Of a stretch of DNA of 36,619 bases, positions 3,663 through 21,899 are shown in pieces. The notes beneath the pieces are model-generated. The model was not told where the DNA came from and did no database searches. It saw only the letters and a list, made by a program, of their open reading frames with translations. The DNA is from a virus, in IMG/VR virus record IMGVR_UViG_3300025889_000376, positions 1 to 36,619 of that record. The stretch is one strand, 5' to 3'. Each line of letters opens with the position of its first letter. The first letter of the stretch is position 1. The position numbers and the translations under genes were made by a program.

Positions 3663-4277
3663 ATGCCTTCCGTCACTCCCGGCTATTCCTTTACGGGTCC
3701 GACCGACCCGATCACCTACACCAAGCTGAACCTGCTGGGTCAGCCTACGGTGGCTGCCGTGTCCACGAATGACGTGACCACCAGCACGATTGCAGACTTG
3801 GCGGTTACGACGGCCAAGTTGGCTGACGATGCGGTAACGACGGCTAAGATTGCGGATGATGCGGTTACCAGCGATCAGATTGCCTCAGGAAACACTTACG
3901 ATGCGGTTACGTTGTCTGGCGGGGTTACGATCACGCAGGCAACGCCGGTTTACGAGACTTACAGCACGGTGCTGTTCGGCAGCACGATTTCCCTGACGTT
4001 TGGGGCTACGGACGGAAACACTCGCCGCATCGCCTGCTCCAGCAGCACCGCAGCCACGATCAATGCAGCTACGGTCCCGAGGGCTGGCTACATGCTTCAG
4101 ATCACGTTTACGACCGACGGTACGGGCGGGAACGTAATCACTTTCGGAACTGGCTTTAAGACGCTTACAGCCACTTCCACGCTGACCCTGACCGGCACCA
4201 ACAAGTACTTTCAAATCGCGTTCGTTTCCGATGGCAGCCACCTGCTGGAGATGAGCCGCACCGCAGCTGTTGGCTGA
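3663..4277 (+). CDS. Short tail fibre-like protein with TTAK(L/I)ADDAVT repeats (204 aa)
   Basis: After a short N-terminal segment (about residues 1-40) come tandem repeats of the form VTTAKLADDAVTTAKIADDAVTS at about residues 42-75. This is a collagen-like or trimeric fibre shaft motif common in phage fibres. The C-terminal 120 residues are rich in Thr, Ser and Gly and predicted to be beta-structured. The gene starts three bases after the tail hub stop with the leader TAACCATG. A trimeric short fibre attached to the hub is the likely role. Receptor specificity cannot be read from the sequence. Confidence 0.65.
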   Translation: MPSVTPGYSFTGPTDPITYTKLNLLGQPTVAAVSTNDVTTSTIADLAVTTAKLADDAVTTAKIADDAVTSDQIASGNTYDAVTLSGGVTITQATPVYETYSTVLFGSTISLTFGATDGNTRRIACSSSTAATINAATVPRAGYMLQITFTTDGTGGNVITFGTGFKTLTATSTLTLTGTNKYFQIAFVSDGSHLLEMSRTAAVG

Positions 4278-4284
4278 TCCCACC

Positions 4285-6876
4285 ATGGCTATCAAAACTG
4301 ACAAGAGCACCACGGATGACGAGTTGGACTTTCTGGAAGGCGGCTCGACCGGCAGCAATCCTGAGATGCCCGATTTTACGTCTGGAGGCAGCATTTTCGG
4401 CACTCCTGGCGGTCTGTTAGGGTCTACGACGATTGGGGCTGATGGTGGCACCCCTGGTGGATTTCTGACGGGTGCTGCACCTACGTTTGGCGTACCGGGG
4501 CTGGTGCCCGGCACTACGCTAGACAGCATCGGCACGTTTGACCCGTCCGGCACGATGATGGGCAACACGTTCCTCAACAGCCCGTCCGGCCTTGGGCCGT
4601 CCGGCATTGATTGGAGTACTAAAGGAGGGGATTGGTGGAATAACACGACCACGGCTGCTGATCCTGATATGAGTGGCGTTGCTTTGGGCAGCGCCCCTTT
4701 CCGCAACATAAGCATTGCGACCGGAACTCCATCTACCACGGGGGGCGTTACGACGTTGACCGAAACTCCCAATGTGGGAGGAAACGTCACGACTGATGCT
4801 ACTGGAGACGTAGTAAAACTTGATCCCTTTAAGGTGGGTGCTGGCAGTCAGGGTCCAGATTTCCTAGCTCCGGGATACATTTCAACGCCAGTCACCGGAG
4901 GAAATGCCCTCCTTGGAGGAATAAGCACGGGTGCGGCAAATGCTGGCGGCGTTACCGTCATGGATCCGTTCCAAGTGACGGACACCAATCTGCCCAAGGT
5001 CTCATTTAACTTCAATCAGTCCACGGAAACGACGCCGAGTACGCCGGGTGCTACTGGAACAACGGGTGGATCAGATGTCACCACGCTTCCGACGATGACG
5101 GTCACCGGAAGCAGGGTTGATAACCCCAATCCATTTACCACGCAGGATGCCATTGATTTGCTTAACAAGGCTACTGCTAACTGGGGTCCAAGGCCAATCA
5201 CCCTTCCTCCGGTTACAGCTACGGCCACAAGCACGGCTACGACTACATCCACTAACACAATAACTCCTACGATTACCTGTCCATCGCCTGAAACGCCAAT
5301 TCTGTTGGCCGATGGATCTGAGATTGCTGCTGGCAAACTGAAGGTAGGCGATAAAGTTCGGACCTCTCACGAGCATACAAAAGCGTGGGGCGATTTTACC
5401 GTCACGCATGTTGAAACCGTCAAGAGCCACCGTTTGTGCCTAGTTCTGGATCAAGGGCGCTTCATTTGCTCCCCGACGCACAAGTTCAGTACTGGCGATG
5501 GATGGAAGGAGGCCAAGGATTACAAATCGGGCGACAAGCTGCAACATCGCACCGTCCTTGCCACGGTTGGTCTTGAAGATGGCGATGTGGTCATCATCAC
5601 CGTTAATGACGCCCACACCTATGTTTCCCAAGGACTTCTATCGCATAACAAGTCGATAATAACTCCGCCGCCTCCGCCTGGTCCTATCATCGGCCCTGGC
5701 GTTACTGTTCCGCCTCCACCTCCTCCCCCTCCTCCCCCGCCTCCTCCGCCTCCGGGTGGCACTACTGGTCCTACGACTTCTGGACCGGCGACTCCCAGCA
5801 CTCCGACGTCTACCACTTCCTCCGCCATGAACCAACGTGATCTTGAGGCAGAACTCGGCAAAAGCCTTTCCGCCTTGCAGAAGTATCAGCCCCAGATGCT
5901 GGGGATGTACAAGGACATCTACAACCAGTTCATGCCGGAGAGCCTGACGGCTGCCTCTCGGTCTGCCCTTGGTCAGTTGCAGGCCGATGAAGCCAAGCTC
6001 GCCCGCCTCCGCGCTGGTCAACTGTCCCCCGAGGATGTCCGTCAGTCCCAGCAGGCTGCCCGTGAAGCCTACGGCGCCCGTGGCCAGGCCATGGGAACCG
6101 GAGCCATTGGAGCGGAGATCCTGAACCGCGAGAACATCCGTCAGCAGCGTGAGGATCAGGCCCGTGCCGCCTACCAGCAGTCCATGGGTAACTTGTTCAA
6201 CACGGCCAACCTTCAGACCGGCAACATCTTCAACCCGATTGCCAGCCTGATCAGCGGTTCCTTTAACCCGTTGGGCGCTTACCCAGCTGACGTGTACGGC
6301 ACCAACGTGAATGCCCAGTTGGCCCGCGACATTGCCCAGAAGAACTATGAAGCCGCCGTTCGTTCTGCTGAGTTGCAAGGCTCTGCTGCCAAGTCGGCTG
6401 CTAACACCAGCATTTTTGGAGACGTTTTGAAGGTCGGAACTGAACTTAAACTGTTGTTCAAGTGTCTGCCTGGCGATCAAGCTATTGACACGCCTACTGG
6501 CTCCAAGGCTATTGAAAGCATTCGTGGCGGCGATGAAGTCATCGGCTACGATGGTCTGCCGCATCGTGTGTTGCAGGTTTGCTCATACGTCGAGAATCCT
6601 GAGACCGAGTTCCTGACGTTCACCCTTGAGAACGGTAAAACGATTACCACCTGCGACAAGCATCGGATCCTCGACATTCCTGCCATGGAGTGGGTGGTTG
6701 GCGCCAAGATGAACGGCCTTGAGATCAAGAGCATCCACAAGAAGGTTGGCATTACTACCAGCTATGACCTTGTGACAGAAGTTGGCGGTTACCAGATCGC
6801 CGGTGTTCCGGTAAATTCGATGATCCCTGAGATGCTGGCGCTGACCATGCAACTCGTAGCCCTCAAGCACGCCTAA
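4285..6876 (+). CDS. Virion protein with two Hint (intein/hedgehog-like) self-processing domains (863 aa)
   Basis: I start at the ATG at 4285 (CCACCATGG); a TTG 15 bases upstream is less likely. Residues 1-330 are Gly/Thr/Pro-rich low-complexity sequence. Hint 1 spans about residues 332-455. It starts at Cys332 (CPSPETPILLADG), has a block-B-like CSPTHKF, and ends YVSQGLLSHN with Asn455, followed by Lys rather than Cys/Ser/Thr. Next comes a linker with a run of about 15 prolines. Residues 540-720 are a helical, Gln/Ala-rich domain like an internal virion protein. Hint 2 spans about residues 727-844: it starts at Cys727 (CLPGDQAIDTPTG), has CDKHRI, and ends AGVPVNS with Asn844-Ser845, where Val replaces the usual penultimate His. 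Only 18 residues follow. The context implies a tail or ejection protein. Protein cleavage at the Hint borders is inference from the family. Confidence 0.75.
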   Translation: MAIKTDKSTTDDELDFLEGGSTGSNPEMPDFTSGGSIFGTPGGLLGSTTIGADGGTPGGFLTGAAPTFGVPGLVPGTTLDSIGTFDPSGTMMGNTFLNSPSGLGPSGIDWSTKGGDWWNNTTTAADPDMSGVALGSAPFRNISIATGTPSTTGGVTTLTETPNVGGNVTTDATGDVVKLDPFKVGAGSQGPDFLAPGYISTPVTGGNALLGGISTGAANAGGVTVMDPFQVTDTNLPKVSFNFNQSTETTPSTPGATGTTGGSDVTTLPTMTVTGSRVDNPNPFTTQDAIDLLNKATANWGPRPITLPPVTATATSTATTTSTNTITPTITCPSPETPILLADGSEIAAGKLKVGDKVRTSHEHTKAWGDFTVTHVETVKSHRLCLVLDQGRFICSPTHKFSTGDGWKEAKDYKSGDKLQHRTVLATVGLEDGDVVIITVNDAHTYVSQGLLSHNKSIITPPPPPGPIIGPGVTVPPPPPPPPPPPPPPPGGTTGPTTSGPATPSTPTSTTSSAMNQRDLEAELGKSLSALQKYQPQMLGMYKDIYNQFMPESLTAASRSALGQLQADEAKLARLRAGQLSPEDVRQSQQAAREAYGARGQAMGTGAIGAEILNRENIRQQREDQARAAYQQSMGNLFNTANLQTGNIFNPIASLISGSFNPLGAYPADVYGTNVNAQLARDIAQKNYEAAVRSAELQGSAAKSAANTSIFGDVLKVGTELKLLFKCLPGDQAIDTPTGSKAIESIRGGDEVIGYDGLPHRVLQVCSYVENPETEFLTFTLENGKTITTCDKHRILDIPAMEWVVGAKMNGLEIKSIHKKVGITTSYDLVTEVGGYQIAGVPVNSMIPEMLALTMQLVALKHA

Positions 6877-18315: not shown

Positions 18316-19092
18316 CTAGGCGATTGGTGGCTTGTAGCCCTTGAGGTACTGCCAGAGCTTGAGGGCCGCTTGGAAGGCATCCCATGCCTCCTCCAGTTGG
18401 GTCGCTGAGTAGTTCACGATCTCAACGCGGCCCTTCTCGGTGGTCGATATGTAGACGTTGGCCCCGGTGGTGTTGTGATGGATCCTGCCGAACTTGGCCA
18501 CGCAGTAAGCCGCGATCTGCATCGGCTCGGTCTCCCAAGGCGTGCAAGGTTGGCCAGGCTTGGTCTTACGGGACTTGAAATCCAAGATCCCGTTGAAGCC
18601 TATGCCATCGGTGAAAACCGCGTCTGTCGTACCAGCGTAGCCATCGCGCACGTTCACCAACCGCAGTTCATGCTCCCTGAATTTGATGCCTTCCTTTTCG
18701 ATTAGGCACGAAACGGGGTAAACGTAGGCGTCGTACCCATCCGGCACCGGATCGCCCTTAAAATGCGATTCTAAGGCAGCGTGGATGGCCGTGCCTAGGT
18801 CGGCAGCATCGCTCACCTGCTGGAAGGCGCCATCCGTGGCCCGGCGGGCGTAGCTGTCCACGCCTTCGTTGTCCTGCGGAGGGTTCCCGTGGCACCAGTT
18901 GCTGACCTGGGCGAGTTTCCAGTCCATCAACTGCGGCTTGTCCAGCACGCCAAGGACGGTGGTGACCGATGGGTAGAGCCCGAGCTTGCGGGCGTCTGCA
19001 ATGGTGGTAGGCCTAGTGCCGCCGCCCTTGGCCTTGGGAACCTCGAAGACGGCGGCACCTGTCCGGTCGTACCAATGTTGGGACTTACTCAT
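18316..19092 (-). CDS. PD-(D/E)XK family exonuclease (258 aa)
   Basis: The motifs of RecB/lambda-exonuclease-like nucleases appear in order: GTAIHAALE (residues 100-108), the metal-binding Asp of GYAGTTDAVF (Asp157), GILDFKSRK (Asp171, Lys173) and QIAAY (192-196). These form the catalytic core that degrades or trims DNA ends. With the SSB-like gene downstream and RusA-like remains further on, it forms a phage recombination module. A recombinase of the Bet/RecT type is not recognisable in the window, which is notable. The 5' end overlaps the HhH gene by 8 bases. Confidence 0.8.
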   Translation of the reverse strand: MSKSQHWYDRTGAAVFEVPKAKGGGTRPTTIADARKLGLYPSVTTVLGVLDKPQLMDWKLAQVSNWCHGNPPQDNEGVDSYARRATDGAFQQVSDAADLGTAIHAALESHFKGDPVPDGYDAYVYPVSCLIEKEGIKFREHELRLVNVRDGYAGTTDAVFTDGIGFNGILDFKSRKTKPGQPCTPWETEPMQIAAYCVAKFGRIHHNTTGANVYISTTEKGRVEIVNYSATQLEEAWDAFQAALKLWQYLKGYKPPIA

Positions 19093-20229: not shown

Positions 20230-20448
20230 ATGCACCACTACGACATCGAATGGAATGCAACCGAAGTAGTTCATCCGTCGCCTATGATTCTTGACGACGG
20301 AACCACTCGCCCCCGCCCAACTGGGCCTGCTCGTTGCGGTGGACTCTTAAAAATTACCGCTGAAAACGCAGAAGGAGCAATCGCTCGCGTTAAGCTGCTG
20401 CTCCGCATGACTGGAAGCCCCAAGGATGTTGTGGTCAAACTTGCTTGA
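20230..20448 (+). CDS. Small hypothetical protein (72 aa)
   Basis: The product begins MHHYDIEWNATEVVHPSPMI and ends in a short helix-strand unit (ARVKLLLRMTGSPKDVVVKL). The C-terminal half has the look of a small alpha/beta fold. It is the first rightward gene after the divergent control region and directly precedes the structured non-coding stretch. I do not recognise it. Its expression may mark the transcription start for the RNA that follows. Confidence 0.5.
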   Translation: MHHYDIEWNATEVVHPSPMILDDGTTRPRPTGPARCGGLLKITAENAEGAIARVKLLLRMTGSPKDVVVKLA

Positions 20449-20469: not shown

Positions 20470-20809
20470 CTTGCCGCAATCCGGCAAGTCTGGACGGAAG
20501 TCCCCAGGCGCAGTGAGCGGCCACCCTAACAGGGAGCCCTGCCACGAACTAATCGGCAGCGGAAACGATCACCCGTCCGCGTAAGAGTGAAGGTTAAACC
20601 TAGTGAGCCGGTAGTCAGCCGTGTGCATGAGGCACCTCCGAGCGGCCCTACCAGTCGAAGCAGACACCCCGTCCAAGGCGCAGTAGCCTCTTCGATAGAC
20701 AGCTTGCCCCCGCTAGGGGTGAGCTGTCTCGCAACTGTTACCCGAGCCAAAACGCAATCAGCCTCTCCCAGCTTGCTCCCGCCGGTGCCAGCCGTTAACA
20801 GCCCGTGCC
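20470..20809 (+). ncRNA. Candidate structured RNA of about 340 nt before the receptor-binding gene
   Basis: No ORF fills this stretch, yet it is dense with perfect short stems. CTTGCCG/CGGCAAG is near 20470-20488. GGAC-GGAA-GTCC carries a GNRA-type loop. CTGCC/GGCAG and GCGGA/TCCGC follow. A nested arm at about 20609-20653 has GGTAG/CTACC outside GCCG/CGGC outside GTGC/GCAC. TCGAAG/CTTCGA encloses AGGC/GCCT. AGACAGCT/AGCTGTCT contains CCCC/GGGG (about 20695-20728). A distal CTGTTA/TAACAG pair closes the 3' end. The strand is inferred from the flanking rightward genes. It could be a trans-acting RNA or a long 5' leader. I cannot match it to a known class. Confidence 0.6.
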
Positions 20810-21472
20810 ATGAATTTCCTCCGTACCCAGTCGTTAATGCGGATAGCAGACACCTTGAAGGTAAAGCTGAACGGTGTCCTATGGAAGACCCAGTCCAACC
20901 TTAATGTGGTGGCCGGCCAGGGACTGACGTTCAGCCAGGTCGAGACCAAGGATACCAGCACGCTCACGGTCGGCCTCAGCACGGACGGCAGCTCTAGGGG
21001 CTACCAAGGGATGTTCTGGAGCCAAGTGAACCAGACGGCAGCAAACACGACCACGAGTTACTCGGTCACGTTCACCAACTCAGCGAGCTTCAACAATGGG
21101 GTGAGCTTGGTGGATAACAGCAAGATCACGTTCCAGCATCCTGGGGTGTACAACATCCAAATCAGCATCCAGTTCGTGAACACGGACAGCCAGATCCATG
21201 ACAGCACCATTTGGTTCAGGAAAAACGACAGCGGCACGTCAGGTGACATCGCTGATTCCGCCAGCCAAGTGTCAGTGCCAAACAAGCACGGCGGCGTGGA
21301 TGGGCATCTGATCTTTGCCGTGAACGTGCTGGATCAACTGGTGGCAGGGGACTACTACGAAGTGATCTGGGCGGTCACCAACACCAACGTGTCGATGCAG
21401 TATCTCGCCGGCACAACCTCACCCGTCAGCCCCAACATCCCGAGCATCATTCTCACGGCAACGCAGGTATGA
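20810..21472 (+). CDS. Receptor-binding/adhesin-type protein with a C1q/TNF-like jelly roll (220 aa)
   Basis: Residues about 15-60 form a short shaft-like region (LKVKLNGVLWKTQSNLNVVA). Residues about 75-220 read as a C1q-like beta jelly roll: YSVTFTNSASFNNGVSLV, then ITFQHPGVYNIQISIQFVN, then the last strands NVSMQYLAGTTSP and PSIILTATQV. The ITFxxxGxYNIxxSIQF pattern is typical of phage head or tail adhesins. The gene has no SD and directly abuts the structured RNA. It lies far from the tail cluster, in a separate rightward cassette, so it may be an exchangeable host-range module. Confidence 0.65.
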   Translation: MNFLRTQSLMRIADTLKVKLNGVLWKTQSNLNVVAGQGLTFSQVETKDTSTLTVGLSTDGSSRGYQGMFWSQVNQTAANTTTSYSVTFTNSASFNNGVSLVDNSKITFQHPGVYNIQISIQFVNTDSQIHDSTIWFRKNDSGTSGDIADSASQVSVPNKHGGVDGHLIFAVNVLDQLVAGDYYEVIWAVTNTNVSMQYLAGTTSPVSPNIPSIILTATQV

Positions 21473-21645
21473 CAAGGTGGGTGGATGCGGGCTGGAGGTT
21501 ACCAGCCTCGGCTAACCTGCCCGTGGAAGTTGTTCTGGCCGATGGCTCGACCGAGAAACGGGACACGCTGACGGGAGACTGGCGGCCCGTTGTCCGCTGG
21601 AGGACGGTTGACAAGGAAGCTGGGTCGCGGAAGAAAAAGGCATGA
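21469..21645 (+). CDS. 58-residue hypothetical protein
   Basis: The start overlaps the adhesin stop (ATGA), and its stop overlaps the next start (ATGA). The product MTRWVDAGWRLPASANLPVE continues VVLADGSTEKRDTLTGDWRP and ends basic (RKKKA). The small beta-rich Trp-containing fold is unrecognised, but the double overlap makes it a real gene. Confidence 0.6.
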   Translation: MTRWVDAGWRLPASANLPVEVVLADGSTEKRDTLTGDWRPVVRWRTVDKEAGSRKKKA

Positions 21646-21899
21646 GCATCACCTACCGAGGCGAGACCTTTTCTGGTTACAACAAGCCAAAGCGCACGTC
21701 CGGTGGTAGGAAGAAAAGCGCCGTCCTCGCCAAGAAGGGCAACAAGGTGAAACTGGTCCGATTCGGTGACCCGAAACTGTCCATCAAGAAGGATCAACCC
21801 GCCAGGAAGCGGTCCTACTGCGCCCGGTCTGCTGGCCAAGGGAACACCAGCAACATCTTCTCCGCTAATTACTGGAGCCGGAAGGCATGGTCGTGTTAG
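21642..21899 (+). CDS. Small basic phage protein (85 aa)
   Basis: The product MSITYRGETFSGYNKPKRTS with a repeat-rich basic middle and an end reading NIFSANYWSRKAWSC matches a small phage protein pattern I recall ('TYRGExFSGYNKPKRT...SAxYWSxKxW'). It is Lys/Arg-rich, with two Cys in the C-terminal third, and perhaps binds nucleic acid or DNA inside the head. It closes the rightward cassette just before a pair of hairpins. Confidence 0.65.
   Translation: MSITYRGETFSGYNKPKRTSGGRKKSAVLAKKGNKVKLVRFGDPKLSIKKDQPARKRSYCARSAGQGNTSNIFSANYWSRKAWSC

Follow-up and report, generated by a model that had tools for sequence, protein, structure and literature searches.

The window, that is, the whole stretch of DNA analysed (36,619 nt), is the record of a 36.6 kb phage encoding terminase (phrog_2), portal-like, capsid-like and exonuclease genes. 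The early genes form a leftward block, with the exonuclease at 18316-19092 among them, and the upstream side of this block ends near 20274. A short rightward unit starts past it, and the stretch described here (20470-20809) is located there (Table 1). Among the scanned proteins of this phage, no polymerase or helicase gene was recognised. Shine-Dalgarno (SD) signals are scarce genome-wide, an SD-like 4-mer preceding only 4 of the 29 genes, and this near-absence would fit a host whose translation does not depend on SD. Where distant portal relatives occur in genome contigs, these belong mostly to Verrucomicrobiota bins, which points to a Verrucomicrobiota host without proving it; on this weak assignment, the phage group probably infects members of that phylum.

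Table 1 Parts of the RNA and neighbouring features in the window
Feature	Position	Strand	Basis
Conserved RNA (~245 nt)	20513-20755	+	Homology limits; narrower than 20470-20809
P1, 5' stem-loop GTGAGCGGCCACCCTAACAGGGAGCCCTGCCAC	20513-20545	+	97.2% of cells paired over 12 pairs; both-side changes in 4
Conserved core ATCGGCAGC ... CCAAAACGC	20552-20755	+	17 distinct homologues; model R1, 213 bits
P2 helix with invariant-looking internal loop AACGATCACCCG	20559-20580	+	Three pairs alternate between CAG/CTG and GGA/TCC types
P3, small sequence-variable hairpin AGGTTAAACCT	20591-20601	+	Both-side changes in L224 and L145; missing in L142
P4/P5, three-layer arm GGTAG-GCCG-GTGC and partners	20610-20652	+	Helices 6-8 (12-sequence test)
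P6, long hairpin	20697-20729	+	Helix 10 (12-sequence test) and alignments
3' conserved single-stranded tail GTTACCCGAGCCAAAACGC, conserved end of the RNA	20737-20755	+	Alignments
Spacer with promoter-like TTGCTC - 17 nt - TAACAG before ATG, without Shine-Dalgarno	20756-20809	+	
220 aa receptor-binding-like protein, first gene after the RNA in the window phage (variable cargo)	20810-21472	+	
85 aa phrog_7595 protein, most constant gene of the rightward operon	21642-21899	+	PHROGs, 3e-17

Homologues delimit a conserved element

Starting from portal relatives, 18 contigs of the same phage group were collected, 14 of which share DNA similarity with the stretch. The homology spans 20513 to about 20755, and the sequences diverge immediately on both flanks. 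The preliminary description had drawn wider limits, 20470-20809, with the RNA ending at the start codon of the receptor-binding gene. The conserved end instead lies 54 nt before the ATG at 20810, and two hairpins that had been included (20470-20488 and 20492-20503, the 'GNRA' element GGAC-GGAA-GTCC) fall outside the homology, where relatives have other sequence.

The core alignment contained 17 distinct sequences and one truncated one, the full-length alignment 12; all were from uncultured phages of a single collection (IMG/VR), and the L176 contig probably contains frameshift errors. Nucleotide identity was 63-85% in the core versus 70-82% in the portal gene, indicating about equal conservation, with a mean column identity of 73% over the 17 core homologues. 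L117, L141, L143 and L208 have a different 5' sequence in place of P1, and in L219 other sequence has taken the place of the lost RNA. In L135, an insert of ~240 nt with GATCTA at both flanks lies between P1 and the core.

Searching IMG/VR for the invariant 15-mer CCCCGTCCAAGGCGC gave 67 stretches, among which matches to the core profile were confined to this phage group; the corresponding search for ATYACCCGNNNGCRTAAGAG gave 14, all from already-known members or contigs of theirs. Judging from these two-motif scans, the RNA appears to be known only from one group of ~36-40 kb phages. An exact 21-mer scan of IMG/VR gave no match, BLAST of the stretch against phage records gave chance pieces only, and the RNA was not found in distant portal relatives from Verrucomicrobia MAGs, most of whose contigs stop short of the locus.

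Covariation supports a plus-strand RNA fold

Folding of the 340 nt stretch gave a z-score of -2.24 (3 of 100 shuffles folded equally well), and folding of the conserved 249 nt gave -2.72 (1 of 200), compared with -0.20 for the reverse strand of the latter. RNAalifold predicted the same helices from the 12 full-length and the 17 core sequences. Among the pair cells of the 12-sequence alignment, 93.9% were standard, and 18 base pairs showed compensatory changes on both sides; the 52 cells with both-side changes compare with 19.3 +/- 3.2 in shuffles, none of the 500 shuffles reaching this number. Sliding the structure along the alignment reduced standard pairing to 38-43%. The 17-sequence core gave a similar picture, with 96.5% of pair cells standard and 11 pairs contributing 51 both-side-change cells versus 15.4 in shuffles. 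Mapped onto a tree inferred from the unpaired columns alone, pairs with compensatory types require a minimum of 32 changes of pair type, so the covariation does not reflect one inherited change. Collectively, this excess of compensatory changes over both shuffled and slid controls, as expected of a conserved structured RNA, indicates that the stretch encodes such an RNA, with a fold shared by at least 17 distinct relatives.

G-U cells outnumbered A-C cells by 59 to 7 on the + strand, and only this strand folded better than shuffles; the + strand is thus the RNA strand, and the structure is that of the rightward transcript. All six reading frames are interrupted across members and length differences are out of phase, and the RNA is non-coding. 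Two candidate frames (105 aa on the + strand, 74 aa on the - strand) were dropped on account of stops and phase changes in relatives. The earlier reading of the stretch as non-coding and densely paired was borne out.

Individual helices show how the fold is maintained. A matched change in P2 distinguishes the otherwise near-identical L143 and L177, and in P4/P5 the A2 column pair 76-107 shows all four Watson-Crick types, with at least five changes on the tree. In P6, the 3' strand GGGGTGAGCT is nearly invariant and the 5' strand drifts via G-U pairs. Among the stems singled out from the window sequence alone, the AGACAGCT/AGCTGTCT hairpin enclosing CCCC/GGGG and the GGTAG-GCCG-GTGC arm proved to be conserved helices in relatives; the TCGAAG/CTTCGA stem is present here, but the alignment columns it occupies vary in length and the consensus structure does not include it. 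A scan for extra helices listed a possible contact between GTG (20587-20589) and CAC (20633-20635), co-changed in L137 and L168, and a GGGTGA/TTACCC pairing that competes with P6; support for both was too weak for inclusion in the consensus.

The RNA matches no Rfam family

Rfam 15 at gathering threshold gave no match in the whole window or in eight relatives, and permissive scans gave chance-level matches only, which were inconsistent between members. The best of these weak matches, ar14 at 23.7 bits (gathering threshold 58.8), fell in the hairpins upstream of the RNA in L116 and was seen in no other member. ARAGORN detected neither a tRNA nor a tmRNA. Likeness by eye to RNase P or group I/II introns was dropped, Rfam being silent. 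With no Rfam match and with covariation in relatives, the proposal of a new phage RNA holds: it belongs to no family in Rfam 15 and is apparently undescribed.

A packaging RNA was dropped as first choice, the Rfam pRNA model giving no match. The RNA shares with phi29 pRNA that it is a structured phage RNA, and relatives here have complementary loops; it differs in that Rfam is without a match, in its distance from the packaging genes and in belonging to a phage with an ordinary terminase large subunit (phrog_2). GOLLD, ROOL and OLE are large, highly conserved structured RNAs, some of them in phages, whose role is unknown or partly known (PMC12286853). They resemble the RNA described here in being conserved and structured, but they are larger and are Rfam members, whereas this one has no match and its position is linked to a gene a short way downstream.

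The RNA heads a slot of exchangeable genes

In 14 of 16 contigs, the first co-directional ORF starts 12-60 nt 3' of the RNA; a cis-acting leader RNA is expected to show such a short and constant spacing from the start codon of a gene on its strand. The distance is 49-60 nt in eight contigs, 12-16 nt in five and 35 nt in one; no long ORF is evident in the first 150 nt in L209 and L177. The identity of the first gene varies, with at least five different genes across contigs. It encodes a receptor-binding-like protein of 216-220 aa in the window, L132, L137, L168 and L224. Elsewhere it encodes a 61-102 aa protein, behind which L135 and L220 carry a fibre gene whose product has an N-terminal Mtd domain (PF18454); other first genes encode proteins of 61 or 306 aa, or are the gene of the phrog_7595 protein (85 aa). 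This protein recurs at the end of the rightward unit and is present in L116, L117, L134, L141, L145 and L208. Since the first gene differs between phages, the RNA stands at the head of a slot with exchangeable cargo, often host-recognition genes. The 220 aa protein of the window, a putative receptor-binding protein, had no match in Pfam or PHROG and has 50 relatives in IMG/VR, mostly in unrelated contexts.

The spacer between RNA and cargo differs between phages. In L168, the receptor-binding gene begins 12 nt past the RNA, leaving no space for a separate promoter behind it. The extra 38 nt in the class with a spacer of ~52 nt is promoter-like (TTGCYC, ~17 nt, a TA-rich hexamer, ATG), from which we infer a putative promoter giving a leaderless message; a scan for consensus promoters did not list the TTGCTC/TAACAG element. 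L219, which lacks the RNA, keeps this same element (38-45 nt) ahead of its receptor-binding gene, so the RNA is not required for this gene in all phages. The sequence that replaces the RNA in L219 holds a small ORF (~3900-4290, reverse complement). Within the promoter-like stretch of the window (20770-20809), the 5' strand of P6, CAGCTTGCCCCCGC, recurs as CAGCTTGCTCCCGC. The missing SD had been taken as a peculiarity of the receptor-binding gene. It is indeed absent there, but because SD is lacking almost everywhere in the window phage, the argument fails.

Most relatives carry a two-hairpin module upstream

In 14 contigs (L061, L116, L117, L135-L137, L141-L143, L145, L168, L176, L177 and L208), the region some 40-150 nt upstream of the RNA holds two hairpins: a GC-rich one followed by a T run, resembling an intrinsic terminator, and another hairpin 30-56 nt before it. 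In 13 of the 14, the two loops share 7-13 nt of complementarity. Mean complementarity was 8.0, versus 5.1 with loops swapped between phages, and nine different loop sequences occur, coevolving examples being GGTAGTAG/CTACTACC, GGTAGAAG/CTTCTACC and ATACGAG/CTCGTAT. The module is missing from the window, L132 and L224, where other sequence takes its place; in the case of the window this is a 72 aa ORF. Only 25-45 nt separate the end of the terminator-like tail from the RNA, a gap that hardly fits a full promoter and thus favours transcription of the RNA by read-through.

C4 antisense RNA and the P4 CI RNA are phage immunity RNAs. The module of the 14 relatives is similar in logic, having complementary, coevolving loops and a terminator-like end, but there is no Rfam C4 match here and no integrase was found in the 13 phages searched. 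The window, where the module is absent, has no complementary hairpin loops in a short terminated RNA of this type. As guesses, the loop-loop pairing might serve termination control or an immunity-like specificity.

Discussion

Weighing the position of the RNA against its structure, we favour, with about evenly balanced confidence, a model in which the ~245 nt structured RNA would be the 5' leader of the rightward operon, acting in cis on any cargo gene behind it. The simplest route to the RNA would be read-through, inside a leader transcript on which the cargo gene would be co-transcribed. It may work as an antiterminator or attenuator during transcription elongation, or at the start of translation, and its effect would be exerted in cis whatever cargo gene is plugged in. 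The preliminary description had proposed either a trans-acting RNA or a leader controlling host-range protein synthesis. The short, fixed position before a co-directional gene argues for the leader; specificity for the receptor-binding gene is unsupported, as the downstream gene changes. Gene-specific control is disfavoured by the diversity of the cargo, and a gene-specific riboswitch or autoregulatory leader, which would require a constant downstream gene, was dropped for the same reason. Against the leader model, phages with a ~52 nt spacer seem to have a promoter of the cargo gene's own, L209 and L177 are without a clear ORF nearby, and L219 kept its gene without the RNA.

The main rival of the leader model, which we consider possible if rather unlikely, is a trans-acting phage RNA (for example, one that binds a host protein or RNA) with its own promoter and processing, which would merely sit at the operon border. 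The conserved loops AACGATCACCCG, GACACCCCGTCCAAGGCGC and GTTACCCGAGCCAAAACGC are typical of tertiary structure or a protein partner, and the varying downstream gene and the promoter-like element 3' of the RNA in the ~52 nt class also speak for it. However, no terminator was seen past the core in the sequences read, the distance to the co-directional gene is constant and short, down to 12-16 nt, and there is no room for a promoter of its own between the upstream terminator-like hairpin and the RNA. A broader proposal, which we regard as unlikely, would have an RNA-only element drive the exchangeable cargo slot in SD-poor hosts, by antitermination or ribosome recruitment, with an upstream loop-loop lock of immunity-code-like diversity in most relatives.

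It seems distinctly improbable that the RNA is an RNA-only processive antiterminator, letting host polymerase read through terminators into late genes by analogy with HK022 put. put is reported to be a phage RNA that antiterminates by itself (PMC9378689), and this precedent resembles the RNA here: both are phage-encoded structured RNAs that sit on the nascent strand where a transcription unit begins, whichever genes follow, and the locus has terminator-like hairpins. The terminator-like hairpin nevertheless lies upstream of the RNA, not downstream, the genes beyond the short rightward operon lie on the opposite strand, and the RNA is several times longer than put and multibranched, with long conserved loops and no detected similarity.

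A DNA element, such as an origin, packaging or recombination site whose inverted repeats mimic RNA helices, is already disfavoured and highly improbable: the locus does sit between divergently transcribed blocks, in a phage without a recognised polymerase or helicase, but G-U usage is strand-specific, the + strand alone folds better than shuffles and GC skew, which gave no origin signal, does not turn at the locus. Chance pairing in a GC-rich intergenic stretch, suggested by the merely moderate single-sequence z-score, is refuted by the covariation in 17 homologues.

To our knowledge, few large structured phage RNAs have been described. The one reported here has well-defined limits, a structure tested by covariation and a short, testable link to a slot with interchangeable genes, and its alignment and model are starting points for an Rfam-type family. 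Should it be cis-acting, host-recognition genes and other accessory cargo would share a general leader in phages poor in Shine-Dalgarno signals, and the RNA would offer a way into how these phages initiate or prolong gene expression.

Elsewhere in the window, an 868 aa protein without PHROG match (4270-6876) contains two segments resembling the Hint/intein type (CPSPETPILLADGSEIAAGKLKVGDKV... and CLPGDQAIDTPTGSKAIESIRGGDEV...).
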